This document shows, one piece after another, positions 11,480 to 34,313 of a stretch of 34,313 nucleotides of DNA. Numbering within the stretch: the first letter of the stretch is position 1; the number at the start of each line of letters is the position of its first letter. Source of the stretch: Streptomyces sp. SID3343 (GTDB taxonomy: Bacteria > Actinomycetota > Actinomycetes > Streptomycetales > Streptomycetaceae). Where the stretch lies: assembly GCF_009865215.1 (NCBI RefSeq), contig NZ_WWJX01001326.1:1-34313 (forward strand), given 5' to 3'. Made by a program: the position numbers and the translations under genes. Under the pieces are notes generated by a model. It was not told the DNA's origin and searched no databases. It saw only the letters and a list, made by a program, of their open reading frames with translations.

Positions 11480-11480
11480 C

Positions 11481-14184: not shown

Positions 14185-14186
14185 GG

Positions 14187-15449: not shown

Positions 15450-15574
15450 ATTCAACGGAGCGACAAGGCAGCCCCTGTGCCTGCGGGAGCGGTGTGAGAG
15501 ATCCACGGTGCTCGACCTGCCGAAAGGGCCGACTGCTCCCTCGGGGCAATGCGGCGCCAGTCGCGCACGTCATA

Positions 15575-15586
15575 TGAGTGCACTCT
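15575..15586. promoter_or_regulatory. GntR-type operator candidate, site F
   Basis: TGAGTGCACTCT contains the perfect 10-bp palindrome GAGTGCACTC, 78 bp upstream of the acyl-CoA synthetase ATG and 137 bp centre to centre from site E. Confidence 0.6.
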
Positions 15587-15663
15587 AAAGGAGATCGGAG
15601 CGCTAGCCTGCCCACGCAGGGCCCGCGCGGCGCGCGCCGGCCGACGAGCAGGGGAGCGACCCG

Positions 15664-17202: not shown

Positions 17203-17208
17203 CCGGGC

Positions 17209-17250
17209 CGTCCGCGTCCGCGCCGGCGGGCGGCGGCGCGGACGCGGACG
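17209..17250. terminator. Convergent hairpin terminator
   Basis: A perfect 17-bp GC-rich stem (17209-17225 with 17234-17250) and 8-nt loop lie between the converging acyl-CoA synthetase and MaoC genes. Confidence 0.75.
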
Positions 17251-17271
17251 ACCCGGGAACGACGCTCGGGA

Positions 17272-17730
17272 TCAGGGGGCGTAATGGGTGAGGGACTCGG
17301 CGACGCAGACCGGCTTCGCCGATCCTTCGACCTCGAAGGTGAACGCGCGGTGCATCCGGACCGCGCCCCCGCCGGCCTGGTGGACCTCGGTGACCGAGGC
17401 GTGCAGCCGGACCCGGCTGCCGACCGGCGTCGGCGCCGGGAAACGAACCTTGTTCACCCCGTAGTTCAGTGCCATGCCCACCCCCGTGACCTGGATGAGC
17501 TCGGCGAGCATGGGCACGTGCCAACCGAGGATGAGATAGCCGTGCGCGACGGTCCCCCCGAACGGGCCGTTCGCCGCCCGTGCGACGTCGGTGTGGATCC
17601 ACTGGTCGTCACCCGACACCCGGGCGTACGTGTCGACGAGTTCCTGGGTCACCTCCTTCCACCGCGAGTGCCCGAGATCGCGGCCGGCCAGCCTGGTGAT
17701 CTCCGGTATGCCGTCGACGATCAATGCCAC
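17272..17730 (-). CDS. MaoC-like (R)-specific enoyl-CoA hydratase
   Basis: A 152-residue single hot-dog-fold protein. The hydratase-2 signature is visible as SGDDQWIHTDVARA with the catalytic Asp-His pair at D41 and H46, followed by FGGTVAHGYLIL. It would add water across an enoyl-CoA double bond with R stereochemistry. The GTG at 17730 gives normal family length. It lies 88 nt downstream of the thiolase gene on the same strand and is probably co-transcribed with it. Its presence beside a crotonase and a 3-hydroxyacyl-CoA dehydrogenase means both hydratase types are available locally. Confidence 0.9.
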   Translation of the reverse strand: MALIVDGIPEITRLAGRDLGHSRWKEVTQELVDTYARVSGDDQWIHTDVARAANGPFGGTVAHGYLILGWHVPMLAELIQVTGVGMALNYGVNKVRFPAPTPVGSRVRLHASVTEVHQAGGGAVRMHRAFTFEVEGSAKPVCVAESLTHYAP

Positions 17731-17818
17731 AGTGAGCTCCGCTCTGGTGGAGGGGTTCCGGGAAAGGTGGGGGTGTGGGGGCGCAGCAGGGCCTCGCGAC
17801 GGCGTGTGTACGAGGCGA

Positions 17819-19042: not shown

Positions 19043-19122
19043 GCGATGGCCTTTTCTGGACGGAGGGGATCAGGCCCCTCGTGGACGCGTCCAGCCGACC
19101 TTCGCAGCCGAATACCCGGTTG

Positions 19123-19147
19123 GTCCAATACCTGATTCGGGTCACAC
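19123..19147 (-). promoter_or_regulatory. LysR-site candidate, thiolase side
   Basis: Plus-strand core GTCCAATACCTGATT followed, after four bases, by TCACAC. The same element in opposite orientation is at 20131-20155, with 22 of 25 positions identical. Relative to the thiolase gene it has the same orientation as the other copy has to its gene, about 80 bp upstream of the start. Confidence 0.6.
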
Positions 19148-19173
19148 CGAGACGTGATCGGTCTCAATGTCCG

Positions 19174-20067
19174 TCAGTCGGGTGTGGGAAGCGCCCGCTC
19201 GGCGACCGCCAGAACGGTGCGCAGCGCGGCGGACGGGTTGTCGGTGCGCCAGGCCAGCGCCGACCGGAGTCGAATCGGCGGGCCCGCCGGCGGCCGGTAC
19301 ACCAGGCCGGTCTGTTGGATGTGCCGGCACGAGGTGAGCGTGAACGTGATGCCCACCCCCGCGGCGACCAGGGCCAGGATCGTGTGCGAGTCCGGTGCCT
19401 CCTGAACCACCCTGGGCGTAAACCCCGCGGCCTCGCACACCCGCACGGTGGCGCTGCGGACGGACGACCCCGCGTTGGCCGGAAAGCTGACGAACGCCTC
19501 CTCGGCCAGGGCGCCGAGCGGAATGCGGTCGTGGTGCGCCAGCGGATGATCCGAGGGCAGCGCGCAGATGAGCTCCTCCTGGTCGATCACCCGCGTCCCG
19601 ACGCCGGGCCTGACCACCGGCAGCCGGACGAAACCCAGGTCGAGCGCCCCCTCGGCGACCTGTTCCAGGGCGACGTCGGCGTACGTCTGGCCGGTCAGGA
19701 CCAGTTCGATACCGGGGTGGGCCGCCCGGACCGCCCGGGTCAGCCGCGGCAGGGTCTCGTGGCTGGAGGCCCCGGCGAATCCCACGGTGACCCGCCCGTA
19801 CTCGCCCTGTCCCGCGGCTTTGGCGGCGCGCGCGGCGATGTCGACGTCCTGCAACACCGTCCGCGCCGGCCCGAGGAAGGACCGACCCGCGCTGGTGAGC
19901 CGGACCGAGCGGGTGTTGCGTTCGAAGAGTTGGACGCCCAGTTCCCTTTCGAGCCGCCGAATCTGCTGGCTGAGCGGCGGCTGGGCCATCCGGAGCCGCT
20001 TGGCGGCCCGGCCGAAGTGCAACTCCTCGGCCACGGCGACGAAACCCGTCAGGTGACGCAGCTCCAC
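19174..20067 (-). CDS. LysR-family transcriptional regulator
   Basis: A 297-residue LysR-type regulator with an intact N-terminal winged helix-turn-helix (residues 1-60: LTGFVAVAEELHFGRAAKRL, PPLSQQIRRLE, LGVQLFERNTRSVRLT) and a periplasmic-binding-protein-like effector domain (about 90-295). It resembles the BenM/CatM-like subgroup in the pattern HFGRAAKRLxMAQPPLSQQI. The gene lies between a co-oriented thiolase gene and a divergent 3-hydroxyacyl-CoA dehydrogenase gene. A near-identical 25-bp element occurs in front of each, so it probably activates both in response to a pathway intermediate (inference). Confidence 0.93.
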   Translation of the reverse strand: MELRHLTGFVAVAEELHFGRAAKRLRMAQPPLSQQIRRLERELGVQLFERNTRSVRLTSAGRSFLGPARTVLQDVDIAARAAKAAGQGEYGRVTVGFAGASSHETLPRLTRAVRAAHPGIELVLTGQTYADVALEQVAEGALDLGFVRLPVVRPGVGTRVIDQEELICALPSDHPLAHHDRIPLGALAEEAFVSFPANAGSSVRSATVRVCEAAGFTPRVVQEAPDSHTILALVAAGVGITFTLTSCRHIQQTGLVYRPPAGPPIRLRSALAWRTDNPSAALRTVLAVAERALPTPD

Positions 20068-20130
20068 GGCGCTCCTCCGTATCCCGGGCCCGGTCGGCGC
20101 CCGTGCTCGATTGATCTCTTCGACGTCTCA

Positions 20131-20155
20131 GTGTGAGCTTAATCAGGTATTGGAC
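20131..20155 (+). promoter_or_regulatory. LysR-site candidate, dehydrogenase side
   Basis: GTGTGAGCTT followed by AATCAGGTATTGGAC is the reverse complement of the 19123-19147 element at 22 of 25 positions. It lies in the 218-bp region between the LysR start and the 3-hydroxyacyl-CoA dehydrogenase start. AAT-N5-ATT within it could be a LysR-type dyad. Confidence 0.6.
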
Positions 20156-20285
20156 ACCACTCAATGCCGCCGGCAGCGTGGGGGGACCGCCGCACCCGCC
20201 GAGGGCAGCACCCATGCCAACCATGGGTGCCCCCAAGGCGATTCGACGCCGGCCCCGTCCACCCGCGTTCACAGGAGAGCCCCCC

Positions 20286-21821
20286 ATGCGCATCAGGATC
20301 GTCGGCGCCGGAGTCATGGGCCGAGGCATCGCCCAATGGGCGGTGACCGCCGGCCACACCGTGGAACTGTGCGACGCACGCCGGGAATCCGTGGGTCAGG
20401 CGCTCGACTTCGTCGCCGACATGCTCCGGCGCGCGGTGGACAGGCAGCGGATCACGCCGGCGAACGCGGCGGCCGCCGTCGAGCGGCTCGTCCCCCTGGA
20501 CTCGCCCACGGCACCCGGCGACACGGTGGAACTGGTCATCGAGGCCGTCCGCGAAGACCTCGTCACCAAAGCCGAACTGTTCGGCGAACTGGAACGCGTC
20601 CTGCCACCGGAGACGGTGTTCGCCACCAACACCTCCTCCCTGTCGGTCACCCGGATCGCGGCAACGTTGACGGACCCCGCACGGCTCGCCGGTCTGCACT
20701 TCTTCAACCCGGTACCGCTGATGAAGATCGTGGAGATCGTCCCCGGAGCCCTGACCCGCCCGGACATCCCGCCCGCACTGACCGCCCTGGTGCGCGGGAG
20801 CGGGCACGCCGCGGTGACGGTCGCGGACACCCCCGGGTTCCTGGTCAATCACGCCGGTCGCGGCCTGGTCACCGAGGCGCTCGCGCTGTTGGAGGAGTCC
20901 GTGTCCGACCCGGCCGGGATCGACCGGATCGCCCGCGACGTGCTCGGACTGCGCATGGGGCCCTTCGAGCTGATGGACCTCACCGGCCTCGACGTCAGCG
21001 CCACGGTCAACGACTCCATCTGGCAGGGGTTTCGACACTCCGACCGACTCCGACCCTCCTTCCTCACCGCCAACCGGGTGGACGCCGGGCTGCACGGCCG
21101 CAAGACCGGACGCGGCTTCTACTCGTACACCGACGAGAGCACCGCACTCCCGGCCGAACCGCCGATCACCGGGGACGCCGACCGCCCGGTGTGGGTGGCC
21201 GGCGCCGGGCCTGACGCCGACGCGTTGCGGCGGGCACTGGCCGGCGCGCGACTCGCGCCGCTCGACGGGCCGAACGACTGGGCCGACCCGGTGGTGCTGG
21301 TCCCCACCTGGGGAACCACCGCGGCCGCCGCGGTCGCCACCGACCGGCTGCCCGCCCGCCGCACCTTCGGCGTGGACCCGCTGTCCCTGACCGGCCCCCG
21401 CAGGGTGCTGGCGGTGACGCCCGCCGCGGATCCCGCCGCGGTGCGCGACGCGCGGGCCGTCCTGGCCCGGGCCGACGAATCCGGACAGCCCCCGCACGTC
21501 AGCGTCGTACGCGACACCGCGGGCTCGGTCGCCCAACGGCTGGTGGCCTCGATCGTCTCGGTCGCCGCGTCCATCGCCGAGCGCTCCATCGCCGGCCCCG
21601 AGGACATCGACCGCGCGGTCACCGCCGCACTCGGCTACCCCCTCGGCCCCCTGGCGTGGGGCGAGAAGATCGGGGCGCCGCGCGTGCTCGCCCTACAGCA
21701 GGCCCTGCACCGTACGACCGGTGACCCCCGCCACCGGCCGACCCGCTGGGTCACCGAACGCGCGCAACTCGGCCTGGCCCTCACCGAGCCCGGCACCGCG
21801 CCCGCCGACGCGGCCCTGTGA
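20286..21821 (+). CDS. 3-Hydroxyacyl-CoA dehydrogenase (PaaH/FadB-like, two C-terminal domains)
   Basis: A 511-residue NAD-dependent dehydrogenase. The Rossmann motif GAGVMG (7-12) is followed by D30, which favours NAD over NADP. The catalytic pair is in HFFNPVPLMKIVE (H138 and E150). The first 3HCDH C-terminal domain spans about 180-285, and a second, diverged copy spans about 415-505 (DTAGSVAQRLVAS... GYPLGPLAWGEKIG), as in PaaH-type proteins of about 500 residues. The ATG at 20286 is chosen over upstream in-frame codons because GGAGA lies 9 nt before it and the Rossmann motif then starts at the N-terminus. It is first in an operon with ACAD and F420-oxidoreductase genes. Confidence 0.92.
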   Translation: MRIRIVGAGVMGRGIAQWAVTAGHTVELCDARRESVGQALDFVADMLRRAVDRQRITPANAAAAVERLVPLDSPTAPGDTVELVIEAVREDLVTKAELFGELERVLPPETVFATNTSSLSVTRIAATLTDPARLAGLHFFNPVPLMKIVEIVPGALTRPDIPPALTALVRGSGHAAVTVADTPGFLVNHAGRGLVTEALALLEESVSDPAGIDRIARDVLGLRMGPFELMDLTGLDVSATVNDSIWQGFRHSDRLRPSFLTANRVDAGLHGRKTGRGFYSYTDESTALPAEPPITGDADRPVWVAGAGPDADALRRALAGARLAPLDGPNDWADPVVLVPTWGTTAAAAVATDRLPARRTFGVDPLSLTGPRRVLAVTPAADPAAVRDARAVLARADESGQPPHVSVVRDTAGSVAQRLVASIVSVAASIAERSIAGPEDIDRAVTAALGYPLGPLAWGEKIGAPRVLALQQALHRTTGDPRHRPTRWVTERAQLGLALTEPGTAPADAAL

Positions 21822-21858
21822 CATCCCTTCCCACCCACCGCCACACCAAGGAGACGCC

Positions 21859-23019
21859 GTGCTCGCACGGGATTTCGGCCTGACCGAGACACAACGCGAC
21901 ATCAGGGCCATGGCCGCGGACTTCGTCGACGCGGAGATCGCCCCGAACGCCCGCGACTGGGACCGTGCCGAGCGAGTCGACCCCGGCATCGTGCGAAGGC
22001 TCGGCGAACTGGGGTTCCTGGGGCTGACGATCCCGGAACAGTACGGCGGCGTGGACGCCGACATGCTCTCCTACGTCCTGGTCACCGAGGAACTCGGACG
22101 CGGCGACTCCTCGATTCGCGGGATCGTCTCGGTCTCCCTCGGACTCGTCACCAAGACCATCGCCGCGCACGGCACCGAGGAACAAAAGCAGCAATGGCTG
22201 CCCCACCTGGTGCGCGGCGACGCGCTGGGGTGCTTCGCCCTGACCGAACCCGGCTCGGGGTCCGACCCGGCGTCCCTGTCGACCCGGGCCGTGCGCGACG
22301 GCCGGGACTGGGTAATCAGCGGCAGCAAGACGTTCATCACCAACGGCACGTGGGCCAAGGTCGCGCTCACCTTCGCCCGCACGAGCGACACCGGCATCAC
22401 CGCCTTCCTGGTGCCCACCGACTCGCCCGGGTTCACCGCTTCGGAGATCCACGGCAAGCTCGGCCTGCGCGGCCAGCCGACCGCCGAACTCACCTACGAC
22501 GCCGTGCGCGTTCCGGACTCGGCGCGCCTGGGCGAGGTCGGCAAGGGCTTGCGCATCGCCCTGGGAGCACTGTCGCGAGGACGCGTCTCCGTGGCCGCGG
22601 GCGCGGTGGGCGTGGCTCAGGCGTCGCTCGACGCGGCCGTGCGCTACGCGACCGAACGGACGCAGTTCGCAAAGCCGATCGCCTCTTTCCAACTCGTGCA
22701 GGAGTTGCTCGCCGACTCCGCCGTCGCGGTGACGGCCGCTCGGCTGCTGACCCACCGGGTCGCCCGGATGGTGGACGCCGAAGTCGATTCGAAGGACTAC
22801 GCCGTGGACGCCTCCATGGCCAAGTACCACGCCAGTGAGACGGCCGTGCGGGTGACCAACGACTGCCTGCAGGTCTTCGGCGGCTACGGGTACATCGACG
22901 AATACCCGCTCGGGAGGTACCTGCGGGACGCGCGGGTGCTCACCCTGTACGAAGGCACCAGCCAGGTGCAGAAGCTCATCATCGGCCGCGACCTCACCGG
23001 CGTGAACGCCATGGTCTGA
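21859..23019 (+). CDS. Acyl-CoA dehydrogenase, short/medium-chain type
   Basis: A 386-residue classical acyl-CoA dehydrogenase. Visible motifs are the flavin motif CFALTEPGSGSDPAS, KTFITNGTWAK, RTQFAKPIASFQLVQ, QVFGGYGYIDEYPLGRYLRD, and the catalytic glutamate in LYEGTSQVQ (E365). In contrast to the other dehydrogenases in the window it has the textbook base and length, so it is probably a stand-alone homotetramer. The GTG at 21859 has AAGGAGA 4 nt upstream. It lies 37 nt after the 3-hydroxyacyl-CoA dehydrogenase gene, in one operon. Confidence 0.94.
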   Translation: MLARDFGLTETQRDIRAMAADFVDAEIAPNARDWDRAERVDPGIVRRLGELGFLGLTIPEQYGGVDADMLSYVLVTEELGRGDSSIRGIVSVSLGLVTKTIAAHGTEEQKQQWLPHLVRGDALGCFALTEPGSGSDPASLSTRAVRDGRDWVISGSKTFITNGTWAKVALTFARTSDTGITAFLVPTDSPGFTASEIHGKLGLRGQPTAELTYDAVRVPDSARLGEVGKGLRIALGALSRGRVSVAAGAVGVAQASLDAAVRYATERTQFAKPIASFQLVQELLADSAVAVTAARLLTHRVARMVDAEVDSKDYAVDASMAKYHASETAVRVTNDCLQVFGGYGYIDEYPLGRYLRDARVLTLYEGTSQVQKLIIGRDLTGVNAMV

Positions 23020-23062
23020 ACGATTGCCGCCGCCGTCGCCGCCACGCAGGGAGAACTCGTAC

Positions 23063-24118
23063 ATGACCACCTACCCGCGCCCCACCGGGCCGCTGAAACT
23101 GGACGCCGCGATCGGCACCGCGCCGCGGATCGTCGAGGCCGCGGTAACCGCCGAACGGCACGGCATCCACCGGGTCCTCGTCCCCGAGACCGCCCAGGAT
23201 CCCTTCCCGCTGCTCGCGGTGGCGGCGTCTCGCACCACCACCGTCGAGGTGGCCACCGGGGTGGCCATCGCCTTCGCCCGCACACCGATGACGTTGGCCT
23301 CCAGCGCCTGGACACTTCAGGGCATCTCCGGCGGTCGCGCCGTGATCGGCCTGGGCTCGCAGATCAAGGCACACATCACCCGCCGCTTCGCGATGCCGTG
23401 GTCCAGTCCGGCGGCCCGGATGAAGGAGTTCGTCAGCGCCACCCGCACCATCTGGAACAGCTGGCAGACCGGCGCGGAACTCGACTTTCGCGGCGAGTTC
23501 TACAGCCACACCCTGATGAACCCGTTGTTCGACCCCGGCCCGCTGGAGCAGGGCGAGCCGCTCGTGCTCATCGCGGCCGTCGGACCGCTGATGGCGGCCA
23601 CGGCCGGCGCGGTCGGCGACGGCGTGATCTGTCACCCGTTCGGCACGGCGCCGTATGTCACCGAGCAACTCGCCCCGGCGGTGCTGGCGGCCCGCTCCAA
23701 GGCCGAGGCCGAGCAAGCCCCGTGGACCAAGCGGCCGTTCGAGATCGCCGGCAACGTGTTCGTGGTCACCGGCCGCACCGAGCAGGAGTACGAGCACAGC
23801 CTTGCCGGTGTCCGTGAGCGCCTGGCCTTCTACGGATCCACCCCGGCCTACCGGGCCGTGCTGGAGCACCACGGGTGGGGCGCACTCCAGGAGGAGTTGC
23901 GCGCGCTGTCGCTACAGGGTCGCTGGAAGGAGATGGGTCGGCTCGTCGACGACGACGTGTTGAACGCCTTCGCGGTGGTCGCCGAGGACCCCGCCACGGC
24001 GGGCAGACTCGTTCGCGAGCGCTACACCGGCGTCTACCACCGAGTGTCGGTGGCGCAGGCCCCCGAGTCCGACCCGGCCCTCGCGCTGGATGTCCTCGAC
24101 GGCATCCGCCACGGCTGA
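23063..24118 (+). CDS. LLM-class F420-dependent oxidoreductase (MSMEG_2256-like)
   Basis: A 351-residue luciferase-like TIM-barrel flavin/F420 oxidoreductase. The sequence from residue 10 (LKLDAAIG...RIVEAAVTAERHG) and the block GRAVIGLGSQIKAHITRRFA (about 90-109), MPWSSPAARMKEFV and HTLMNPLFDPGP match the F420-dependent MSMEG_2256-type subfamily pattern. The ATG at 23063 is preferred to an upstream in-frame start because GGGAG lies 9 nt before it. It is last in the operon with the 3-hydroxyacyl-CoA dehydrogenase and ACAD genes. It may perform a redox step on a ketone, alcohol or enone of the substrate. Cofactor assignment rests on subfamily resemblance, not a seen binding residue. Confidence 0.88.
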   Translation: MTTYPRPTGPLKLDAAIGTAPRIVEAAVTAERHGIHRVLVPETAQDPFPLLAVAASRTTTVEVATGVAIAFARTPMTLASSAWTLQGISGGRAVIGLGSQIKAHITRRFAMPWSSPAARMKEFVSATRTIWNSWQTGAELDFRGEFYSHTLMNPLFDPGPLEQGEPLVLIAAVGPLMAATAGAVGDGVICHPFGTAPYVTEQLAPAVLAARSKAEAEQAPWTKRPFEIAGNVFVVTGRTEQEYEHSLAGVRERLAFYGSTPAYRAVLEHHGWGALQEELRALSLQGRWKEMGRLVDDDVLNAFAVVAEDPATAGRLVRERYTGVYHRVSVAQAPESDPALALDVLDGIRHG

Positions 24119-24136
24119 ACCGACCACCGCGAACGG

Positions 24137-26368
24137 CTACCGGGGTGCGCGGGCGGTGCTCGGGCTCGGGCCGGGTCGGTTCGGTGCGGCGGTGGCCGCG
24201 CAACGTCGGCACGAGCGATCCGAGCGGTCGCAGTGGCCACACGACGGGCAGATGTGGGTACGGGCGCGAAGGTGACACGGTTCGGCCAGCAGATCCTGGC
24301 CGAACGTGTGATCCAGATGGTCCCCGTGACCCCCGGTGCCGCGGTCCGCGCCGACGGCGAGCAGGACCGCGTACGACGTACCGCACCGGCCGCAGCGGCG
24401 GTTCTCCCAGGACACTCCGCACGAGCACACGCAACGGTAGGTGAGGCCGTCACGCGCCTGGAAGTCCCGGGCCCGTGCGGTGCACACGGGACAGCTCGGC
24501 AATCGCCCCAATTCGTCGACCGCGTCGCGCAGTTCAAACTCCAGCGGATCCGGCGCGTGGAGCCCGCCGGCACCTCGGCGGCCCGGGGCGCCTCCCGCGC
24601 GCAACGAGCGCAGTGTGGTCGCCAGCGTTCGCCACTGGGCCTCGGACGGCGGCCGGGTCGGCAACAGGCTCTCGTCGGGGCCCACTTCGAGCCAGTCGTG
24701 ATTTTCGGCGAGTCGACGGGCCAGGCCGGACGGACAGCGCACCGACCGGGGATAGTCGGCGAGCGGTGCGCAGTCGAGGGCCGTGCGCAACAGCCTGGCC
24801 ACCCGCGTGACGCTGTCCACGTCGGTGGGCCCGACCGGGACCAGGGCGGGTAGCGCGCGGCCGTCCCCACGGGTCCCGTGGGTGCTGTGCGCCGCGGCGC
24901 GCACGGCAGGCGGCAGCCGAGGGCGTTCGCCCGGATCGGCAGGGTACAGGACGGCCACGCGCGGTTCGGGCGGCGTGGGTTCGGATGGACGCGGTGCGGA
25001 GGGCACCTCGGGGGAGGGGACCCACAAAGTCTCCAACCACGCCTGCACGGCCCCCGGTTCGGGCACGGCGGTGACGGCGTGCGCGAGCGGGACCACGCGC
25101 AGGGTCGGTCGGGCGTCGACCACGAGCGTGAAGGTGTCGTCCGCGAGGTCTCGACGCAGGACGACCGATGCGTGTCGGTGATGGTGGAAGCCGAAGTCGT
25201 CGAAGCCGGGGGCACTGTCGAAGCCGTCGGCGTTGTCGGAGTCCTCGGTGCCCGGTGATTTCGGGGACAGACCGAGTTGTTCGAGGGCTCGGACCAGGAG
25301 CAGCAGGGAGAACTCGGAGAACGCGCGGCACCACACGTCCGTCTCCCCGGCCGCGTGGGATCGGTCGCGGGTTGCGTGCAGCCGCACGTGCGTGTTCCAC
25401 AGCTCGTGGCAGCGGCGGTAGTCGTCGTGGTTGGCGAACAGGTTCGTCGGGCGCAACTGCGGCCGGCCGTCGTAGGGAACGCGGATCGCGCGGCGCAACG
25501 GCGAGTCGAGCAGCGGGCCGAGTCGGTGTCGCAGGGTTTCCAGGCGGGCGCGAGCGGCATCGACGCGTTCGGGGAGCCGCGGATCGGCGAGCAGTACGGC
25601 CAGGGTTCGGTAGTGGTTGTTCCGATCCTGCCATCGCGGCCGGTCGGCGGTCTCGGCCAACAGACGTCGGCCGCGTTCGACCAGCCGGCCGATGCTGTCG
25701 AGTTCGGCGACGCGCGCCGCCACGTGCTGCCACAGGCGGTCGAGGAGCGCCGCCACCACCCGATTCTCGTACAGATCGTAGTCGGGCACCTGGATCGGGA
25801 CGAGCAGCCTGGAAGGTTCGACGCCGTGCAACCGGCGGGCGGCCCACGTCTCGGAGTGCGCCGACAGGTGTACCGCCGTACGCCACGTGATCCGTCGGGC
25901 GCGACCGGCCCGCACCAGGACGTCCTCGGTACGCAGACGCGCGTACGGAGACGCGCAGACCCGCTCCAGACCGCCGAGTTCCGCGCGGATCGCGTCGTCG
26001 AGCGGGTGCGGATCCAACCGGGTGTCGTCGTCGGCGATCAGCGGCGGTGTCGCGGCCCATCGCGCCGGCGACGCACCGTCGCGACGATCGGCGGTCACCG
26101 CGTTCGCGATGCGCACCACGTTGTCGAGGATCAACGGACCGGGCAGCGCCCCGGGACCGTGCTCGCCCTCCCACCGGAGGGGGCCGGCCGCTCGCTCGGC
26201 GCCACGAAGGGCTGCCGCGTCGACAGCGACCCCGCCCGCCGGTGGGGCGCTCGGCTCGGCTCCCGGGTCGTTCACGAGTACGTATCGGCCGAGCAGCGAA
26301 CGCCCCGTCGGGGCGGCGACGCGACGTCCGGTCAGTCGGTCCCTCGGCGTCTCGGCGGAGCTCACCAC
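24137..26368 (-). CDS. DUF2357 (McrC-related) protein with C-terminal zinc ribbons
   Basis: A 743-residue protein. The segment VPDYDLYENRVVAALLDRL (194-212) and PTNLFANHDDYRRCHELW (307-324) resemble the DUF2357 domain found next to PD-(D/E)XK nucleases of the McrC group. Where the nuclease core should follow, the nearest match is TLVVDARPTLRVV (414-426), D-x-R rather than D-x-K, so catalysis is doubtful. The C-terminus carries thirteen cysteines in tandem zinc-ribbon pairs (CPVC 626, CVCSC 646, CGRC 659, CPSC 707, CRRC 720), suggesting nucleic-acid binding. The start is GTG 26368, or GTG 26365 which overlaps the upstream stop as GTGA. Last gene of the defence-like operon, following its AAA+ partner as McrC follows McrB. 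Function is inferred. Confidence 0.75.
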   Translation of the reverse strand: MVSSAETPRDRLTGRRVAAPTGRSLLGRYVLVNDPGAEPSAPPAGGVAVDAAALRGAERAAGPLRWEGEHGPGALPGPLILDNVVRIANAVTADRRDGASPARWAATPPLIADDDTRLDPHPLDDAIRAELGGLERVCASPYARLRTEDVLVRAGRARRITWRTAVHLSAHSETWAARRLHGVEPSRLLVPIQVPDYDLYENRVVAALLDRLWQHVAARVAELDSIGRLVERGRRLLAETADRPRWQDRNNHYRTLAVLLADPRLPERVDAARARLETLRHRLGPLLDSPLRRAIRVPYDGRPQLRPTNLFANHDDYRRCHELWNTHVRLHATRDRSHAAGETDVWCRAFSEFSLLLLVRALEQLGLSPKSPGTEDSDNADGFDSAPGFDDFGFHHHRHASVVLRRDLADDTFTLVVDARPTLRVVPLAHAVTAVPEPGAVQAWLETLWVPSPEVPSAPRPSEPTPPEPRVAVLYPADPGERPRLPPAVRAAAHSTHGTRGDGRALPALVPVGPTDVDSVTRVARLLRTALDCAPLADYPRSVRCPSGLARRLAENHDWLEVGPDESLLPTRPPSEAQWRTLATTLRSLRAGGAPGRRGAGGLHAPDPLEFELRDAVDELGRLPSCPVCTARARDFQARDGLTYRCVCSCGVSWENRRCGRCGTSYAVLLAVGADRGTGGHGDHLDHTFGQDLLAEPCHLRARTHICPSCGHCDRSDRSCRRCAATAAPNRPGPSPSTARAPR

Positions 26369-28785
26369 ACCCCCCGGTCACGGATCTCGTTTTCCAGGAA
26401 TTCCAGCGCGTCCGTGGGAACGCTCGTGGTGCTCAACCGTGGCCAGGCCTGCTCGATCTCGGCCTGGATCTTCTCCAGTCGGGGCGCCGCGACCTCCCGG
26501 CGACCGCGTACCTTGCGCAGGATCCTGGTGGTGAGCAGATGGTCCGCGGCCTCGCCGATGTCACCGCCACAGGCCCGCACCACCGGCACGAACTCGCGTG
26601 CCTGGCGCGGGAGTCGGCTGCCCCACGAGACCTGTAGGTCGCGCCGCAGGACGTTGCCCAGTTCGTCGTCCAAAAAGGCCAGAACGGTCTCGGCGTCCTG
26701 GTGATACCGCTCGCGCGCGTCCGCGAACGCCTTCGACAACGCCTCCATCGAGAGCGGGGCGATCGGTCCGGCCCGGGGCGGGCAAAACGACACCGGCCGG
26801 TCCGGCAGTTCGAGCACGTGGGCGCGGTCGTACGTCTTGTCCGCGAAGGTCACCGTCGTCTCGTCGTTGTTGGCGGTCCCGATGAACCACACGTTGTCGG
26901 GCAGCACGAGAGCACGCCCCTCGTGCAGCAGACGCGGCGCGGGACCCACCTCCGAGGTCGTCAGGGGCAGGATCTGTGGGCCGCGCGCCCGCATCTCCAG
27001 GGCGTGCAGCACATCGCTGAAGTACTGCTCAGGGTGGGACAGGTTCATCTCGTCCAGCACCACGAGGAAGGGCCTGGTCCGAAACGCCGGAAGTTGTGCC
27101 CGATACAGCGCCTGGGTGAACTCGCTCTCGTAGAACTTGCGCTCGAACGCGTTGTAGTAGCCCATGAGATCCTGGGGCCCACGCCATTCGGCCGCCACCG
27201 CCACGGTCGCCGAGCCCGCGCCGATGGCCTTGGCGAATTCGAGCGGGAGCGCGGTCTTGCCGATGCCGCTGATGCCCTCCAACAGGTGGAGGCGACTCGC
27301 CGCCAGTCCGCCGAGGAAACAGCGCAGGTCCCGTTCGGAGTAGAACAGGCCCTTGCGACGGGCGATGTCCTCGCGGATCCGGACGGCCAACGCGGCGAGA
27401 TCGGGGACCTTGGCCGACAGTTGGGGCTGCTCGGCGAATCCGGCCCGCTCGTCCAGGGCCGTGCACGCCGGGAAGGCGGACCGATGCTCGGGATCGGCCT
27501 GTAACTCGCCGTATCGAGCCGCCTGTTGGGCTATCTCGGTGCGCAGCACGTTGTTCAGCCCTTCGAGTGCCTGGTTCACCACCCGATTGGTCTCGCGTTC
27601 GGCGACCGCGATACGACCGGACGCGAGCAGGCGCCGATGCTCCTCGTTCTGCCGCAACAGTTCCTCGCGTTCGGCGACCCACTCCTGATGGCGAAGTTCG
27701 AGTTCGCGCAATCGCTCCTGGTCCTCCGGGGGACGGGCGGCCAAGGTGTGGCGCAGTTCCCGGTGGTCGGCGCGCAGGCGTCGCAACTCCGCGGCGACCT
27801 CGGGTATCGATCGGCCCTCGAAATCCAGCGCCGCCGCGTCCAGGGCGGCGAGTTGCCGGCCCCGCTCCTGCGCGATCTCGACCGCCTGACGGTGTCGATC
27901 CCGCCAGGCGTCCCGTTCCAGACGACAGGTTTCGAACTCCAGGGCAACGCTCGCCTCGGCCTGGCGGCGCACGTCCACGCGCTCGGATTCCACCTCCTGC
28001 TCGCGTGCGTCGAGCAGTCGCTCGCGTCGTTCGTGAGAGCGCTCGCGCTCCTCGATGCGCGCCTCGGCCGCGTCGAGCCGCGCGGACCGCGAGTGGAACT
28101 CGGTCTCGGCCGCGCCACGCCGATCGGCGATCTCCTCGTCCCGGCGCCGCGTCTCGGCGTCCGCGGCGGTACGCAACCGCGCCAACTCCTCGCGCAGGCC
28201 CGCGATCCGGTCCCGGCGATACTCGGCGAAATCGGTGTGCGCTTGCTGCTCCAGCTCGAACAGGCGGGCCTCGTCGGCGGCACACCGGCGGATCCGCTCG
28301 ACGAGTTCGGCCTCGCGCTCGTCGATCCGGCTTGCTCGCGCCCGCAGCGCGTCCTCGTCCGCCGCCACCCCCTCGACCCGGGCCCGATGGGCGACCTCCC
28401 GGCGCTCCTCCTGTTCCGCGAGGTCATTGCGGGCGCGTTCCAGGCGCCGGATCTCCTCCCGGTGCTCCTGCTCCCGCCGCCGCGCCAGTTCCCGGGCCCG
28501 GAGCGCCTGTTCGACCGCGGCGCGCAGGTCGTCCACCCCCACCTCCTCGGCGACGTCGTCGATGTCGACGTCGTCGCCGAACGACGGTTGCTCGGGCGCC
28601 GAATCCCGCTCGCCCGCGGTGAGCGCGTACGCCTGCTCGACCAGCGCCACCGCGTCGTCGGCCGTCGCGGGCTCCCGGTCGCTTCCGCGCTCGTCGCCGG
28701 GGCCCGGATCCCGGGCTCCCGCAGCGGCCGAACCGGAACCGCGTTGCACGCGGACCCGGTGTGCGGACTTGGGACGTTTAGGCAT
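26362..28785 (-). CDS. Coiled-coil McrB-like AAA+ NTPase
   Basis: An 807-residue protein. Residues 1-85 are low-complexity and acidic. About 86-430 is an Arg/Glu/Ala-rich heptad-like region expected to form long coiled coils. About 465-800 is a McrB-like AAA+ domain: Walker A GISGIGKT (504-511), Walker B FLVVLDEMNLSHPE (573-586), sensor region WFIGTANNDETT (633-644) and YDRAHVLELP. The McrB GTP signature MNxxD appears as ANNDE, so guanine specificity is uncertain. The ATG at 28785 overlaps the previous gene by 8 bp, and the stop overlaps the DUF2357 start. A coiled coil fused to a McrB motor, beside a McrC-related protein and a UPF1-like helicase, is the pattern described for coiled-coil nuclease tandems (CoCoNuTs). 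Confidence 0.85.
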   Translation of the reverse strand: MPKRPKSAHRVRVQRGSGSAAAGARDPGPGDERGSDREPATADDAVALVEQAYALTAGERDSAPEQPSFGDDVDIDDVAEEVGVDDLRAAVEQALRARELARRREQEHREEIRRLERARNDLAEQEERREVAHRARVEGVAADEDALRARASRIDEREAELVERIRRCAADEARLFELEQQAHTDFAEYRRDRIAGLREELARLRTAADAETRRRDEEIADRRGAAETEFHSRSARLDAAEARIEERERSHERRERLLDAREQEVESERVDVRRQAEASVALEFETCRLERDAWRDRHRQAVEIAQERGRQLAALDAAALDFEGRSIPEVAAELRRLRADHRELRHTLAARPPEDQERLRELELRHQEWVAEREELLRQNEEHRRLLASGRIAVAERETNRVVNQALEGLNNVLRTEIAQQAARYGELQADPEHRSAFPACTALDERAGFAEQPQLSAKVPDLAALAVRIREDIARRKGLFYSERDLRCFLGGLAASRLHLLEGISGIGKTALPLEFAKAIGAGSATVAVAAEWRGPQDLMGYYNAFERKFYESEFTQALYRAQLPAFRTRPFLVVLDEMNLSHPEQYFSDVLHALEMRARGPQILPLTTSEVGPAPRLLHEGRALVLPDNVWFIGTANNDETTVTFADKTYDRAHVLELPDRPVSFCPPRAGPIAPLSMEALSKAFADARERYHQDAETVLAFLDDELGNVLRRDLQVSWGSRLPRQAREFVPVVRACGGDIGEAADHLLTTRILRKVRGRREVAAPRLEKIQAEIEQAWPRLSTTSVPTDALEFLENEIRDRGVW

Positions 28786-30406
28786 GCGCTGGTGGTCCTT
28801 CCCGTTCCGGGGTGAGCAGTAGTACGGTCCGGCCGGCGTCGAGAGCCAGGTTCCGGCACAGCTCGACCAGCTCCGGCGCGGACGGTGAACGCTCGCTGTG
28901 CGCACCGCCGTTGCGCACGGAGTTGATCGTTTGGAGCTCGCTCAGCAGGGCGGGTCGACGGCGGGCGAGGTCGCGCAGCGGGTGGCGGTGTCGGTCGGGT
29001 GCGGCCGCGTCCGCGGCGGCGATCAGCGCCCACGGCACGATGTCCTTCGGCGAACCCTTGGCCACGCGCGCGGACACTTCCCTGTCCAGGGCCGCGGGTC
29101 GCTCCCGTGCATCGCGCAGGACGGTGTTGAGCCGCCGGATCACCTGGGTGTCACCGAACAGGTCGGTCAGATCGGTCAGGCCCACGTCGGCCGCGTAGCC
29201 GCGAAGACGTGCGCGCGTGCCGGTGTCGGTCAACGCCCCCGCCGCGGCCAACCAACCGGGTACGACCGGGCGGTACTCGTCGACCACGCGCCGAAACAAC
29301 TGCTCGTAGGCGCGGACGGTGTCGCGTACCACCGTCTCCACGGCCGCCGCCTCCTCGCCCCGGGCGATGCCGTCCGCGACGCCGAGCAGCAGTTCCATCA
29401 TCTGCGGGTGTCGTCGGATGTCCTCGCCCAGCCGCTCCACCAACGCGGCTTCGGCGCGCCGACGCACCTGTCCGGCCAAGCGCGCGTAGCGCGCGTGCAG
29501 ACGCGTGTCGGCGGCTCGGGTGAGGCCGGACAGATCCTCGGCCAACCGCGGGTCCGCGGGCAGTCGACCCAGGATCAACTGCTCCAGCATCAAGGCCGGG
29601 TCCAGACCGAACGGGTCCCGAACCAGGCGCCGGGCCGGGCCCTCCCCGCTCCCGCCGTCGAGCTCGACCCAGGTCAGCAGGTACTCGGCGGTCGGCGGCC
29701 GGATGTCGGCGATCCGCGAGACGTCCTCGGGAAGCCGCCATTCGGTGTGCATGGCTTGGAGTTCCTGATCGGCCCGGTAGGCCTCGGGGCTCGGCTCGGC
29801 GGATTCGGCCGAGCGCGCCGCGGTCTGTTCCGCCCGGGCCAGGCGGTGTGCCCGAATCGCGTCGACGACCTGTTCGACCCGCGGCGGCACGGGCCGCGTC
29901 GGCGGCTGCGCGATCACGTAGGCCGTCTCGCGGCGAGGGTGGCCCGCGCCGGCCAACCGCAGATCGACCTCGTCCCGGCGTACCCGTGCCACCGGTTGGA
30001 CCCGAAGTTCGGTGGACACGCGCGGCCACAGCTCACCGGTCGCCGGATCCTGGAAGACGTGCGTCACCACCAACTCGGGCGCTCCGACGACCGCGTCCGA
30101 CGTGGTGGCGCGCCGCCCGGCGCTCGTCGGCGCACCCGAGGCGTCCAGTTGCCCGCCGGCCCGCAACTGCCGCATCACGTAGGCGCACAGGTCGACGTCC
30201 TGATGGATCCGCCGGGCCACCTCACCGGGTTCGCGCAACCCCGCGCGGCACAGCGCCAAGATCACCTTCTCGAAGATGTCCAGTCGTCGGACACGCACCA
30301 CCGGCGCCGTCACCCGGTAGACCCACACCGGCCAGCACAGGAACAACAACCCCCGACCCCGAGGCGGTTCGTGCAACAGCAGGACACCCCGCTCGACATG
30401 AAACAC
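28778..30406 (-). CDS. Unknown protein with winged-helix-like N-terminus and HEPN-like RNxxxH motif
   Basis: A 542-residue, mostly helical protein that I do not recognise as a named family. Residues about 44-92 (FEKVILALCRAGLREPGEVARR, VMRQLRAGGQLDASG) look like a winged helix. A middle helical region spans about 265-450. Near the C-terminus SVRNGGAHSERS contains R498-N499-x3-H503, the Rx4H pattern of HEPN ribonucleases, followed by a helix as expected. The GTG at 30406 abuts the helicase stop (TGAGTG), and its own stop lies inside the AAA+ gene, so it is coupled to both. If the HEPN reading is right it would be an RNA-cleaving or RNA-sensing component. The gene is secure; the function is tentative. 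Confidence 0.8.
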   Translation of the reverse strand: MFHVERGVLLLHEPPRGRGLLFLCWPVWVYRVTAPVVRVRRLDIFEKVILALCRAGLREPGEVARRIHQDVDLCAYVMRQLRAGGQLDASGAPTSAGRRATTSDAVVGAPELVVTHVFQDPATGELWPRVSTELRVQPVARVRRDEVDLRLAGAGHPRRETAYVIAQPPTRPVPPRVEQVVDAIRAHRLARAEQTAARSAESAEPSPEAYRADQELQAMHTEWRLPEDVSRIADIRPPTAEYLLTWVELDGGSGEGPARRLVRDPFGLDPALMLEQLILGRLPADPRLAEDLSGLTRAADTRLHARYARLAGQVRRRAEAALVERLGEDIRRHPQMMELLLGVADGIARGEEAAAVETVVRDTVRAYEQLFRRVVDEYRPVVPGWLAAAGALTDTGTRARLRGYAADVGLTDLTDLFGDTQVIRRLNTVLRDARERPAALDREVSARVAKGSPKDIVPWALIAAADAAAPDRHRHPLRDLARRRPALLSELQTINSVRNGGAHSERSPSAPELVELCRNLALDAGRTVLLLTPEREGPPAHA

Positions 30407-33400
30407 TCAGCGCCCCCGAGCCGATCCGTCGATGGGCAACAACACCCCGTCGTCGCCCTGGCACATGCTCAGGAAGTCGGTGAGGGCGGCCACTTCCGGC
30501 GGAGCGACGTCGGGCCGAAACATCGCGTCGTCGCCGGCCACGACGAGCAGCCGTTGCTGCCGACTCAACGCGACACACATGCGATTGCGCAGCGTCAGGT
30601 GACCGTACGCACGCCGCACCCATTCGACATACGCCGAGTGTCGCGCGTGGTCGGGCTCACGCGCGGCCGCCTTGTCCGGCGATATCGCGGACGAGCGGGT
30701 CACCGACAGGAACGAGACGTCGAACTCCTTGCCCTGAAAGGCGTCCACCGTGCCGACCAGCAGGCGGGTACGTTCCGCGCCGTTCGCATCGCGCAACAAC
30801 GCCTCCACCGGTCGATACCCGCGTCCGCTGCGCACCGCGAGCCCGACGGCGACCAGTTCGTGCCACAACAGCCGCACCTGCGCCGCGTAGAAGCTGATCA
30901 CCCCGAACGTGAGGTCGGGTCGATCGGTGGTCAACCGCTTGAGCTCCGCGGCGATCCGTTTGGCCTCCACCGGGCGGGACTTGCTGCGCCCGGCCACCTC
31001 CCGGCCGGCTTCGCCGGGAACGCGCAGCCAGGCCGCCGGACGGTCGGCGTATCCCGGCAGGCCGTGCGCGAACGCGGAGTCCGGTTTGGGCGAGGCGAGC
31101 GCGCCGTCGTAGAAGTTGCGGCCGACGAAGTCGCCGAGTGTGCGATGCATCCGAAACTGGGTGTCGAGTCGGACCGCGCGCGGCGCCTTGGGATCACGGG
31201 CCAGCAGGCGATACAGCTGCTCGAAGACACTGCGCCGCAGGGTGTCGAGCTCGTCGGTGCGTTCGCGGTCCCGCAGTTCCCGTTCGATGTCCGGCTCCAG
31301 CATGTGCGGGAGCTGGCGGTGATCACCGACCAGCACGATGCGGCGGGTCGCCATGGTGAGCGGAATCAACAGGTCGAGCGGGTTCGCCCGGGCCGCCTCG
31401 TCCACGATCACGGTGTCGAACCGCACCGGCCCCGAACTCACCTCCTTGGCACCCGCCACGCCGCGCGAGTCGGCCTGTTGACAGGTCGCGGCCAACGACG
31501 TGGTGTAGAGCCGCAGTGTGTGCAGGACCGCCTGCGGGTCGCCGCGCAGGTCCTCCAGGTAGTCGGCCAAGGCTCGGTCCACGCCTTCGTCGCCGTCTCG
31601 GACGCGATCCTCCAGTTCCGCGACGACGGTGTCCAGCAGTCCGAGCACGTCGGCTCGCGGATACGGCTCGACCAATCGTCGGGTGGGCACGAGCCGATCG
31701 AGCAACGCCGCCCGAACCTCGGCCAGTTCGGCCAAGAACGACGGGACGATCCCCTCGGGAGCCTCGGCGGCGCGCCGGACCACGTCCACGTGGGCGGGGT
31801 CGATCGCATCGACGCGCCGCAGCCGCGCCAGCGCGACGGCCGCGGTGAGGGGGCCGTCGTCGGCGAACGCGGCCGGCACGTCGCGCAGGCCGCGGACCGC
31901 GCGCAGCGTGCTTTCGCGCGTGGGGTCCACCTGTAGTCGCGCGGTGCGACGGAGCACGTCCAGGTCGGTTCGAAGATCCTCCAGTTGCTCGACGAGAGAG
32001 TCGGAGCACAACCCGCGCACCCGGGTGACGACGCGTTCCAGCAGCGCCGGCAACTCCTCGACCGCAACCGGGGCCAGCGCGTACTCGCTCGCCTGGCGGG
32101 CGACCTCACGCAGCGCCAGGGTCAGCCTGCCGCCGAGACTGCCCTCCAACTCGGCCTCCAACGCGTTCAGCGTCTCGAAGCGCCAGGCCGCGACGTGTTC
32201 CATCGAGCCGCGATCTCGCGAGTCCACTTTGATCGCGGGCAGATTCCACACCTTCGAGCGCTCGACCAGATTGTCCACGGCCGCGTGTTGGAAGCTGGTC
32301 AGCAACATGCTGCGGCTGACCACCGCGTGCGCCTTTCCCTGCTCGGCGAGTCGCACCTGGAGAGCGGCGATGAGCTGCGTCTTGCCGGTGCCGGGCGGGC
32401 CCTGGATCACCGCGACGTCCGGGGTGTTCAGCGCCGTCTCCAGGGCCAGGCGCTGAGCCGGGGTGGGTTCGCCCTTGAAGCAGGCCCACGCGGCCGGACT
32501 GTACTCGCGAATCGGTGGGTGTTCGCGGCCTCGCACCGACTGCCCCTGCAGGAGCGGAAGCAACTGGGGCAGCGGGATGTCCTCCCGAAGCACCCGGTCC
32601 AGCGCCTTCCGACGCCGCTCCAGGCGCCGTCGATCGCCGGCCGTCGCGGCGTACAGAAATCCCGGTGCCGCGGGCAACGCCCGGGCCAGACTCGGCCCCA
32701 CGCCCGCGACCCGGCGCTCGCGGTCCGTCGAGCGCAGATCCACCGTGCCCTCGGGCTCGTCGACGGCGACCACCACGCCGACGTCCTCACCGCGGCCGAC
32801 GGGAAGCGACAGCAGGCCGCGATCGTCGGCGAAGGCACCGCCGGGGTGAGTGCCGTCCAACCCGTCGGGCCGATCCCGAGCACACTCCAGCTCGAACTCC
32901 TCGCCCGCCTCGACCGATTCCGCCAGATGCCGCAGCATCGCCCGTTGCCGCGCGCCCCCCTCGCCCTCGACATCGAGCCGAAAGCGCAGCAACTCGGGGG
33001 AGCCGTCGACGCGTTCGCAGTACGCGTACTCCAGGCAACCGAACTCGCGCACCCGGCCGAGTGCGTAGCGATCCTCCAGATTCTGATACTCGCGCCAGCG
33101 GGCCAGGAAACTGTCGTCCCGCTCGCCCGCCTCCAGTCGGCGCAACTCGCCACGCATCCGCTCGCGCAACAGCGCACCGACGGAGGCGTCGGTGAAGTCG
33201 AGATCGCCGTGCACCAGAACCAGCCGTTGGCCGTCCTGCGGCAGCATGTCGTGCCGGCGGATCCCGGTGACCCGCCATCCCAGTTCCGCGCGAGCGAGGT
33301 CGACGACCAGTCCGCCGCCCACGAGCCGGCCCGCCTCCGGCTCGGATAATTCCTGGCCGGGCCGGGCCAGGACGAAGAAGCGACACGGCGCGGGTCCGCC

Positions 33401-33886
33401 GGGCAACGCCGGCAGCGAGACGCGCTCGCGCAACAGGGCCGGCACGCCGGTGCCCGCCCCGTCGCGCGCGCCGCCTTTGGTGACCCGGCGCAGCACGTCG
33501 ATCATCCGGTCGTCGAGGCCGATGGTCATCCTCGTCGGCCAATGCCGGGTCGTGTCGAACACGTGTGCTCGCACCCGTAGCCACGAGTGCTTCGGCCGAT
33601 CCCCCTCCTCGTGCGAGTACACGACCGCGACCGTCGCGGAGGTCTCCCGGACGAGCCGGTGCAGCAGTTCCGCGTCGGCGGCGCCGCGCGGTCGCACCGG
33701 CCAGGACGGCCCGCCGTTCGCGTGCGGCAGCCAGGCCGACACGATCGTCGCGTCGCGGGTGAGCACCACCTCGCGCCCGACCGGGTCGGGCGGCAGCGGT
33801 TGCGAGACCGGGCCTGACAGTTCCACGAACAGCGGCCGGCCGGGCAGCGGGCCGAGGATGCCCTCACCGCCCGGGTTCCCGCTCAT
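30407..33886 (-). CDS. UPF1/Dna2-like superfamily 1 helicase
   Basis: A 1159-residue protein with about 470 residues of unassigned N-terminal sequence followed by a complete SF1B helicase. Motifs seen are Walker A GPPGTGKT (496-503), motif II VDEAA (828-832), motif III GDHRQLP (854-860), motif IV QFRMH (910-914), motif V VGTVDAFQGKEFD (1044-1056) and motif VI NRMCVALSRQ (1101-1110). About 280 mainly helical residues separate motif Ia from motif II. No phospholipase-D-type nuclease motif is visible. UPF1-like enzymes unwind RNA or DNA. The ATG at 33886 overlaps the upstream stop as ATGA, and the stop directly abuts the next gene, placing it firmly in the defence-like operon. Confidence 0.92.
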   Translation of the reverse strand: MSGNPGGEGILGPLPGRPLFVELSGPVSQPLPPDPVGREVVLTRDATIVSAWLPHANGGPSWPVRPRGAADAELLHRLVRETSATVAVVYSHEEGDRPKHSWLRVRAHVFDTTRHWPTRMTIGLDDRMIDVLRRVTKGGARDGAGTGVPALLRERVSLPALPGGPAPCRFFVLARPGQELSEPEAGRLVGGGLVVDLARAELGWRVTGIRRHDMLPQDGQRLVLVHGDLDFTDASVGALLRERMRGELRRLEAGERDDSFLARWREYQNLEDRYALGRVREFGCLEYAYCERVDGSPELLRFRLDVEGEGGARQRAMLRHLAESVEAGEEFELECARDRPDGLDGTHPGGAFADDRGLLSLPVGRGEDVGVVVAVDEPEGTVDLRSTDRERRVAGVGPSLARALPAAPGFLYAATAGDRRRLERRRKALDRVLREDIPLPQLLPLLQGQSVRGREHPPIREYSPAAWACFKGEPTPAQRLALETALNTPDVAVIQGPPGTGKTQLIAALQVRLAEQGKAHAVVSRSMLLTSFQHAAVDNLVERSKVWNLPAIKVDSRDRGSMEHVAAWRFETLNALEAELEGSLGGRLTLALREVARQASEYALAPVAVEELPALLERVVTRVRGLCSDSLVEQLEDLRTDLDVLRRTARLQVDPTRESTLRAVRGLRDVPAAFADDGPLTAAVALARLRRVDAIDPAHVDVVRRAAEAPEGIVPSFLAELAEVRAALLDRLVPTRRLVEPYPRADVLGLLDTVVAELEDRVRDGDEGVDRALADYLEDLRGDPQAVLHTLRLYTTSLAATCQQADSRGVAGAKEVSSGPVRFDTVIVDEAARANPLDLLIPLTMATRRIVLVGDHRQLPHMLEPDIERELRDRERTDELDTLRRSVFEQLYRLLARDPKAPRAVRLDTQFRMHRTLGDFVGRNFYDGALASPKPDSAFAHGLPGYADRPAAWLRVPGEAGREVAGRSKSRPVEAKRIAAELKRLTTDRPDLTFGVISFYAAQVRLLWHELVAVGLAVRSGRGYRPVEALLRDANGAERTRLLVGTVDAFQGKEFDVSFLSVTRSSAISPDKAAAREPDHARHSAYVEWVRRAYGHLTLRNRMCVALSRQQRLLVVAGDDAMFRPDVAPPEVAALTDFLSMCQGDDGVLLPIDGSARGR

Positions 33887-34313
33887 CGCGCACTCGTGCG
33901 CTGGGCGGCGAAGCGCAGGAACCGGTGCACCCGGTCCGGCGGTCCGAACCGCACGGTCCAATGCCCCGCCGCCGAGATCGGGACCTCGACGGCCTGGCCG
34001 CGGTGCAGCGCGAGCCGGCGATCCTCGACCGGATGAGCGAGGTGCACCGGGTGTCGGCTCGTCGACTCGACCGTCACCGTCGACACTCCGTCCCACCGCG
34101 CGACCGCGATCACCTCCTGCGCCTCGACCGTTTCCCCGGACGGACCACCGTCCAGGCACACGAGCGCGTCCCGCGCGCGAACGGCGACGGGTTGCCCGGC
34201 GGTGAGCACCAAGGTCGCCAACCGCCCGGTCTCGCCGCCCGCAGCCAACCCCGGCACCCGCGCCCGAGCCGGCACGCACGCGTACGCGTCGAGCCGCGCC
34301 AGCAGCGGCCGTG
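33883..34313 (-). CDS. Partial protein of unknown function, start beyond window
   Basis: The last 142 residues of an open frame that runs off the right edge. The first in-window start codon is GTG at 34275, but coding-like sequence (RPLLARLDAYAC) continues upstream of it in frame, so the gene is probably longer. The visible part looks beta-rich (LATLVLTAGQPVAVRARDAL, EVIAVARWDGVSTVTVEST, HWTVRFGPPDR) with no motif I can name. Its stop overlaps the helicase ATG (ATGA), which makes it an upstream member of the same operon. No function is proposed. Confidence 0.65.
   Translation of the reverse strand, partial: RPLLARLDAYACVPARARVPGLAAGGETGRLATLVLTAGQPVAVRARDALVCLDGGPSGETVEAQEVIAVARWDGVSTVTVESTSRHPVHLAHPVEDRRLALHRGQAVEVPISAAGHWTVRFGPPDRVHRFLRFAAQRTSAR

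Follow-up and report, generated by a model that had tools for sequence, protein, structure and literature searches.

A probable Type II CoCoNuT operon at a contig end of Streptomyces sp. SID3343 and its actinomycete relatives

We analysed a whole contig (C532; 34,313 bases, hereafter the window) of the draft genome of Streptomyces sp. SID3343 (11.06 Mb, 1,645 contigs), where five minus-strand genes that overlap or abut (24137-34313) very probably belong to a Type II CoCoNuT (coiled-coil nuclease tandem) with the order VWA-kinase-cnuH-cnuE-cnuB-cnuC. CoCoNuTs are, according to the parts of PMC11090510 used here, predicted RNA-targeting relatives of McrBC that occur in a wide variety of bacteria and were called uncharacterised in 2024; since the class was described in that publication, the operon is no new kind of system. 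Taken as a whole, our best explanation, namely that an actinomycete clade carries this Type II CoCoNuT as a defence operon working by the mechanism proposed below, has a probability of roughly 0.8. An earlier sequence-only reading of this DNA had proposed a CoCoNuT- or McrBC-related defence-type operon, which holds and which comparison with the published subtypes narrows down to Type II. It had also seen a distinct variant, yet this part is unsupported because both marker features, the separate protein with a winged helix-turn-helix (wHTH) and HEPN (CnuE) and the inactivated McrC nuclease, are listed for Type II in the same parts of PMC11090510. Its label "RNA-directed" still stands as a prediction.

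Gene order and protein features

The genes and motifs are as follows (window coordinates, except for the last line; aa, amino acids):

33883-34311 (gene part to 34313), minus strand: partial open reading frame truncated at the contig end, predicted to encode the C-terminus of a TerY-P-type Ser/Thr kinase
30407..33886, minus strand: cnuH, UPF1-like superfamily 1 (SF1) helicase, 1159 aa; Pfam AAA_11/AAA_12, SMUBP-2/UPF1 chains and long matches to Type II CnuH rows
32381..32401, minus strand: CnuH Walker A GPPGTGK, residues 496-502
28778..30406, minus strand: cnuE, wHTH and C-terminal HEPN-motif protein, 542 aa; alignment and Type II CnuE profile match
28898..28915, minus strand: CnuE HEPN motif RNGGAH, R498-H503
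26362..28785, minus strand: cnuB, long helix-prone N-terminal region (putative coiled coil) and McrB-like GTPase domain, 807 aa; AAA_5, PDC-M26A, alignment and tree
26860..26871, minus strand: CnuB NxD GTPase signature N-N-D-E (N639)
24137..26368, minus strand: cnuC, DUF2357 (McrC N-terminal) protein with a degenerate nuclease region and C-terminal zinc ribbons, 743 aa; alignment and profile match
24200..24493, minus strand: CnuC zinc-ribbon cysteines C626-C723 (CPVC, CGRC, CPSC, CGHC, CRRC)
L029:10182 to ~11136 (contig C570): kinase N-terminal part, 47% identity to the kinase of locus L017, residues 7-327

Comparison with relatives places the start of cnuH at ATG 33886, in an ATGA overlap with the stop of the partial gene, and identifies the listed cnuB frame from the upstream GTG 28905 as overlong; cnuB starts at ATG 28785 and overlaps cnuE by 8 base pairs (bp). 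A GTG immediately after the helicase TGA opens cnuE, and cnuB and cnuC share 7 bp. These spacings had all been given correctly by the sequence-only reading, whose family calls (UPF1-like helicase, HEPN motif, McrB-like AAA+, DUF2357/zinc protein) are likewise borne out by the family, motif and profile evidence that follows.

CnuH is a UPF1-like SF1 helicase with a large insertion after Walker A. In a profile search against solved structures it matched SMUBP-2 and UPF1 chains, and 326 residues lie between Walker A and the DEAA box. Of the 14 other CnuH rows, 13 have 323-343 residues there, the Deinococcus row being unreadable by this pattern. The protein carries an N-terminal extension that aligns with Type II rows at an hhalign probability of 99.9 (4.5e-33), versus 98.3 (1.4e-14) for III-A rows. 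SmpB-like and RTL domains are ascribed to the CnuH N-terminus in both types (PMC11090510, in part), and CnuH may putatively carry them too, judging by homology of its N-terminal part to rows said to do so.

The match of CnuE to the Type II CnuE profile is nearly full length (6.4e-48 over 479 columns), whereas that to the III-A profile (1.7e-19) ends at column 492 of 706. The single RNGGAH, together with this profile match, agrees with the one HEPN domain (RxxxxH) of Type II, the HEPN fold being putative. Its residues R498, N499 and H503 are invariant in all five aligned rows, and an Rx4-5H occurs in 14 of 15 CnuE rows (Rx4H in 12, Rx5H in 2). The Deinococcus CnuE (L034:9748-11211) has no HEPN motif at the aligned place; the rest of that operon is complete. 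The Pfam match to a wHTH is weak (0.021), and no other Pfam match was reported for CnuE.

CnuB matched Pfam AAA_5 and PADLOC PDC-M26A (7.1e-37); PADLOC gave no match for the partial protein, CnuE or CnuC. Its McrB-like GTPase domain holds the NxD motif, and NxDE is found in all 18 CnuB rows; as these include III-A, Synechocystis and Lactococcus rows, the motif marks a wider clade. Residues 61-420 consist of 67-82% helix-forming letters with few Pro or Gly, and no Pfam family up to E 1 falls there. The CnuB profile comparison gave 1e-129 for Type II versus 3.3e-34 for III-A, and the GTPase tree, whose reference rows were labelled by gene content and not by the accession list of PMC11090510, agrees: the 8 actinomycete rows fall into a single clade (99/98) and join 5 Type II plasmid rows in a 13-row group (100/99), with three III-A rows apart (100/99). 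The 7 actinomycete rows of the CnuH tree are one clade as well (100/100). Several deep forks in the trees stay open, and the Nostoc rows are long.

CnuC, finally, combines DUF2357 with two CPxC and further CxxC motifs, and no Hsp70 family appeared among its Pfam hits up to E 1. Twelve cysteines (C626, C629, C648, C650, C659, C662, C698, C707, C710, C713, C720 and C723) are invariant in 5/5 CnuC rows. Between W324 and E655, by contrast, the same number of rows (two of them close relatives) share no invariant D, E or K. The Type II profile matched CnuC with 7.4e-75 over 579 columns, versus 2.8e-4 over 141 columns (probability 41) for III-A.

Some results weigh against this assignment or against parts of it. 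The DUF2357 match (4.9e-4, 19.8 bits) lies below the Pfam cut-off of 23.3, and a heptad test of CnuB found 0/12 windows above z 2, none of them significant. Searches of solved-structure profiles gave one hit each for CnuE (0.38, no HEPN chain) and CnuC (0.47, no McrC chain), and for CnuB four hits up to 0.01 (best 9.8e-4), which were helical proteins and none of them McrB. The AlphaFold models, built from 3- and 4-row alignments for CnuE and CnuC, are poor (mean pLDDT, the predicted local distance difference test, 47.6 and 56.1, the first 86 residues of CnuC lying nearly all below 50) and had no PDB match at E <= 0.001 (0/132 and 0/141 Foldseek matches); the HEPN fold of CnuE and the IG-like and PD-(D/E)xK folds of CnuC are unconfirmed for this reason. 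Besides, III-A is not separated from Type II in the CnuH tree, where its rows fall unresolved among those of Type II, and the Type II and III-A labels of the plasmid rows are our own, given by gene order and size following the available parts of PMC11090510 and not its supplementary list. The nuclease of CnuC is likely rather than proven to be dead, because D418, E481 and D518 (but no K) are invariant in a four-row alignment of nearer relatives, which points to a possible residual acidic site in the CnuC of the nearest relatives. Anti-phage activity of the operon, too, is presumed by analogy.

Type III-A shares CnuH, the first HEPN part of CnuE, an NxD CnuB and TerY-P with the operon, but is described with two HEPN domains in CnuE and with Hsp70-like and HEAT parts and no zinc ribbon in CnuC (PMC11090510, in part). 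In three plasmid III-A rows CnuE measures 657-718 aa and CnuC 1104-1348 aa, as opposed to 542 and 743 aa here. By lengths and profile matches, neither the CnuC-Hsp70 fusion nor a CnuE with two HEPN domains is present, and Type III-A was rejected on the strength of the missing second HEPN and a CnuC too short for an Hsp70 unit.

Upstream genes and recurrence of the operon

The partial gene at the contig end, which the sequence-only reading had called an unknown partial protein, is indeed partial but can be given a likely identity. Its direct matches to kinase C-terminal parts are weak (tblastn 2.5e-4 for L017 and 2.6e-4 for L021), and a Ser/Thr kinase (STK) profile matched with 2.7e-4. It is nonetheless predicted to be a Ser/Thr kinase C-terminus because of its position and because contig C570 of the same genome ends, at 66136, inside a matching kinase N-terminal part. 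A VWA gene (L029:9103-10074, best VWA E 1.8e-5) precedes this fragment, with a RibD-like gene nearby on the opposite strand. The ends of C570 and C532 share no exact overlap of at least 4 bases, and gene content suggests that the two contigs adjoin. Of note, Ser replaces the catalytic-loop Asn of 14 other rows in the kinase of this genome (L029:10182-11135), whose glycine loop is also unusual (read by eye); the enzyme may be weakened or dependent on a partner.

The sequence-only reading would have been contradicted had the genes failed to co-occur elsewhere, but they do co-occur. A search for related loci found three, in Paractinoplanes deccanensis (L017), Actinoplanes solisilvae (L018) and Streptomyces californicus (L019). 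With CnuE as query, matches were obtained in 3/150 relatives, 3/396 phylum genomes, 7/394 family genomes and 5/394 class genomes; these samples overlap, each takes in the window's own genome, and the family and class counts take in the partial or weak L052-L054. Ten actinomycete loci outside the own genome were examined, and six of them (L017, L019, L020, L021, L050 and L051) hold the complete VWA-kinase-H-E-B-C operon. In four of these six, identity to the window proteins is 28-45%; the other two share 89-99% identity with L020. L018 starts inside cnuB at a contig start, and L052 and L054 are helicase/wHTH pairs without an McrBC pair. The closest relative found, L053 (9215-10434), covers 326 residues of the window CnuH at 59% identity and a 71-residue stretch in the N-terminal part of its CnuE at 65%, has neither CnuB nor CnuC and looks like a decayed remnant. 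At L017, a DEAD/DEAH helicase (254-2368) lies directly upstream of the VWA gene.

Plasmids carry the operon as well. CnuB matched 264 of 72,556 plasmid records at 1e-5, 25 of the 30 listed matches covering at most 40% of the query. Eight of these records were opened: five (L034-L038, from Deinococcus, cyanobacteria and betaproteobacteria) hold H-E-B-C with VWA and kinase genes, two arrange McrB differently (in Lactococcus, and with phospholipase D in Synechocystis) and L040 is an unannotated record with CnuB- and CnuH-like stretches. The CnuE query matched two plasmid records, both among the five Type II loci, and the CnuH query 159, four of which were opened: three are III-A-like (L055-L057) and one is something else. 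Homologues of the four complete proteins thus keep the same order in six other actinomycete loci, which argues against a chance arrangement, and in the five plasmid loci. A housekeeping role was rejected in view of the patchy distribution, with the operon found in 0/3 congeners searched.

Searches for viral contigs covered 18 and 65 candidate stretches and confirmed none. In 3/3 congeners there is an orthologue of the RibD-like neighbour (75-82% identity), but the 20-kilobase (kb) stretches around these orthologues gave no match at 1e-20 to anything else from the C570 end or the window, so that no empty site could be demonstrated.

Elsewhere in the window, the operon adjoins a catabolic cluster to which it is unrelated, as the sequence-only reading had it: a family scan of 10 frames found an acyl-CoA catabolic cluster (5644-24118) with thiolases, AMP-binding ligases, acyl-CoA dehydrogenases and a luciferase-like monooxygenase. 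Contig C297 is identical to window 22940-34313 over 11,374 bases from the same end. The two part ways within the terminal portion of an acyl-CoA dehydrogenase gene, beyond which C297 has a parallel-beta-helix-like frame (read by eye); this may reflect a duplicated assembly, a mixture of strains or a genuine second copy. A tRNA scan of the window and L029 found none.

Alternative readings and the relation to Mokosh

Type II CoCoNuTs as described in the parts of PMC11090510 used here share with the operon CnuH, a CnuE with one RxxxxH, an NxD CnuB, a CnuC in which DUF2357 is combined with zinc ribbons and a degenerate nuclease region, frames that overlap, and an upstream TerY-type VWA gene and kinase. 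The operon differs in that we found neither a PP2C phosphatase nor an RtcR-type activator. This difference is the basis of the alternative that survives best, though it remains unlikely: a distinct new CoCoNuT variant, that is, an actinomycete subtype with VWA and kinase but without PP2C, whose phospho-switch would be one-way or would use a housekeeping phosphatase. PP2C, the phosphatase of the VWA-phosphatase-kinase (TerY-P) triad, is present in 4/5 plasmid Type II loci and in 0/7 actinomycete operons, the own genome included (fetched stretches, flanks from 0.7 kb to >15 kb; the PP2C profile was built from 7 rows, which it matches by construction), and the actinomycete VWA and kinase frames lie so close together that there is no room for a phosphatase gene. 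That the actinomycete CnuB and CnuH rows each form one clade also fits a separate subtype. However, the H-E-B-C core is standard Type II, and the absence of PP2C is not unique to actinomycetes because Nostoc L038 lacks it too; the triad, moreover, is given as frequent in Type II but not as a core component (PMC11090510, in part). Neither is the missing RtcR-like gene a mark of a variant: it is absent from the actinomycete stretches but equally from the fetched stretches of 3/5 plasmid Type II loci (Deinococcus, Pseudanabaena and Nostoc), and apart from its two training rows the RtcR profile matched only two CARF proteins, both at III-A loci. With Ser for the catalytic-loop Asn, even the activity of the own-genome kinase is uncertain. 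The main text of PMC11090510 does not name Actinomycetota under the words searched, its supplement lying outside this scope.

A Mokosh system with extra genes is very improbable, although the kinship that lies behind this alternative appears to be real in part. CnuH matched PADLOC MkoA with 2.2e-77 and 259 bits, whereas the NCBIfam IGHMBP2-type helicase family reached 108 bits, and the actinomycete CnuE N-terminus aligned with MkoB N-termini (hhalign probability 92.7 and 92.6). Mokosh type I (MkoA/MkoB) has in common with the operon a UPF1-like helicase adjoining a gene for a wHTH effector and a Ser/Thr kinase, fused to the helicase in L054. Mokosh-like pairs of helicase and MkoB occur in actinomycetes (L052:6399-10641 and L054:6302-11307); L054 and L052 matched MkoA with 1.3e-208 and 1.2e-109 and MkoB with 4.5e-73 and 5.8e-15. 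Actinomycete CnuH matched both in the helicase core (5.6e-35 and 3.1e-30, in the same order), and the kinase matched L054 over 86 columns (probability 96.7) but not L052 (0.4). On the other side, kinase and helicase are separate genes here, CnuE has no PADLOC MkoB match and ends in a HEPN motif, whereas the C-terminus of the L054 MkoB resembles DrmC/MkoC, and every complete locus has an McrBC-like pair, which L052 and L054 lack; for the plasmid Type II CnuE rows, the comparison with MkoB gave no match either (probability 5.4 and 13.1). The operon thus lacks the kinase-helicase fusion and MkoB of Mokosh type I. Sequence comparison nevertheless indicates kinship of CnuH with MkoA and, less strongly, of the CnuE N-terminus with MkoB. 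Mokosh and CoCoNuT are named as separate systems in the available part of PMC12735699, and the word "Mokosh" is absent from the main text of PMC11090510 and from the text of PMC12458937 at hand.

The adjacent McrB-like AAA_5 and DUF2357 proteins could also suggest an ordinary DNA-cutting McrBC type IV restriction system, which has next to no probability: canonical McrBC was rejected because of the NxD (not NxxD) motif and the lack of nuclease residues conserved across the five-row CnuC alignment, no McrC-nuclease Pfam family occurs among the hits up to E 1, and helicase and HEPN-motif partners accompany the pair in all complete loci.

Proposed mechanism and significance

For a Type II CoCoNuT with this gene content we propose a mechanism of RNA cutting, which we hold with moderate confidence and which covers sensing, RNA binding, GTPase-driven assembly, cleavage and cell fate; it draws on the published CoCoNuT model (PMC11090510, in part) and on the protein families. 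The VWA/kinase pair would sense or license the response, and CnuE would be coupled to the UPF1-like helicase CnuH, which would move on RNA. CnuC, a DUF2357 protein that has probably lost its nuclease and kept its zinc ribbons, would stimulate the McrB-like NxD GTPase CnuB, and this might form an assembly that recognises a target or a stalled complex. The working RNase would be the HEPN part of CnuE, cutting phage and/or host RNA, and the outcome could be a block of the phage or dormancy, the system possibly being abortive. A Pseudomonas aeruginosa Type II CoCoNuT conferred on PAO1 resistance to at least one phage, as did every tested system but JukAB, in the available part of PMC12735699.

More speculatively, actinomycete Type II systems might be one lineage in which the phospho-switch works without a dedicated phosphatase, as a one-way and possibly suicidal trigger, and in which the kinase-CnuH-CnuE half is a Mokosh-related engine coupled to the McrBC-like GTPase pair; we regard this as a tentative idea.

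In summary, the operon is real and well conserved, and its remaining interest lies in the lack of PP2C across the actinomycete clade and in the link to Mokosh. The clade offers intact operons in Streptomyces hosts, as natural PP2C-less systems in which to ask what role the phosphatase plays. Besides, it may link CoCoNuTs to Mokosh, another defence system built on a helicase-effector pair of this type.

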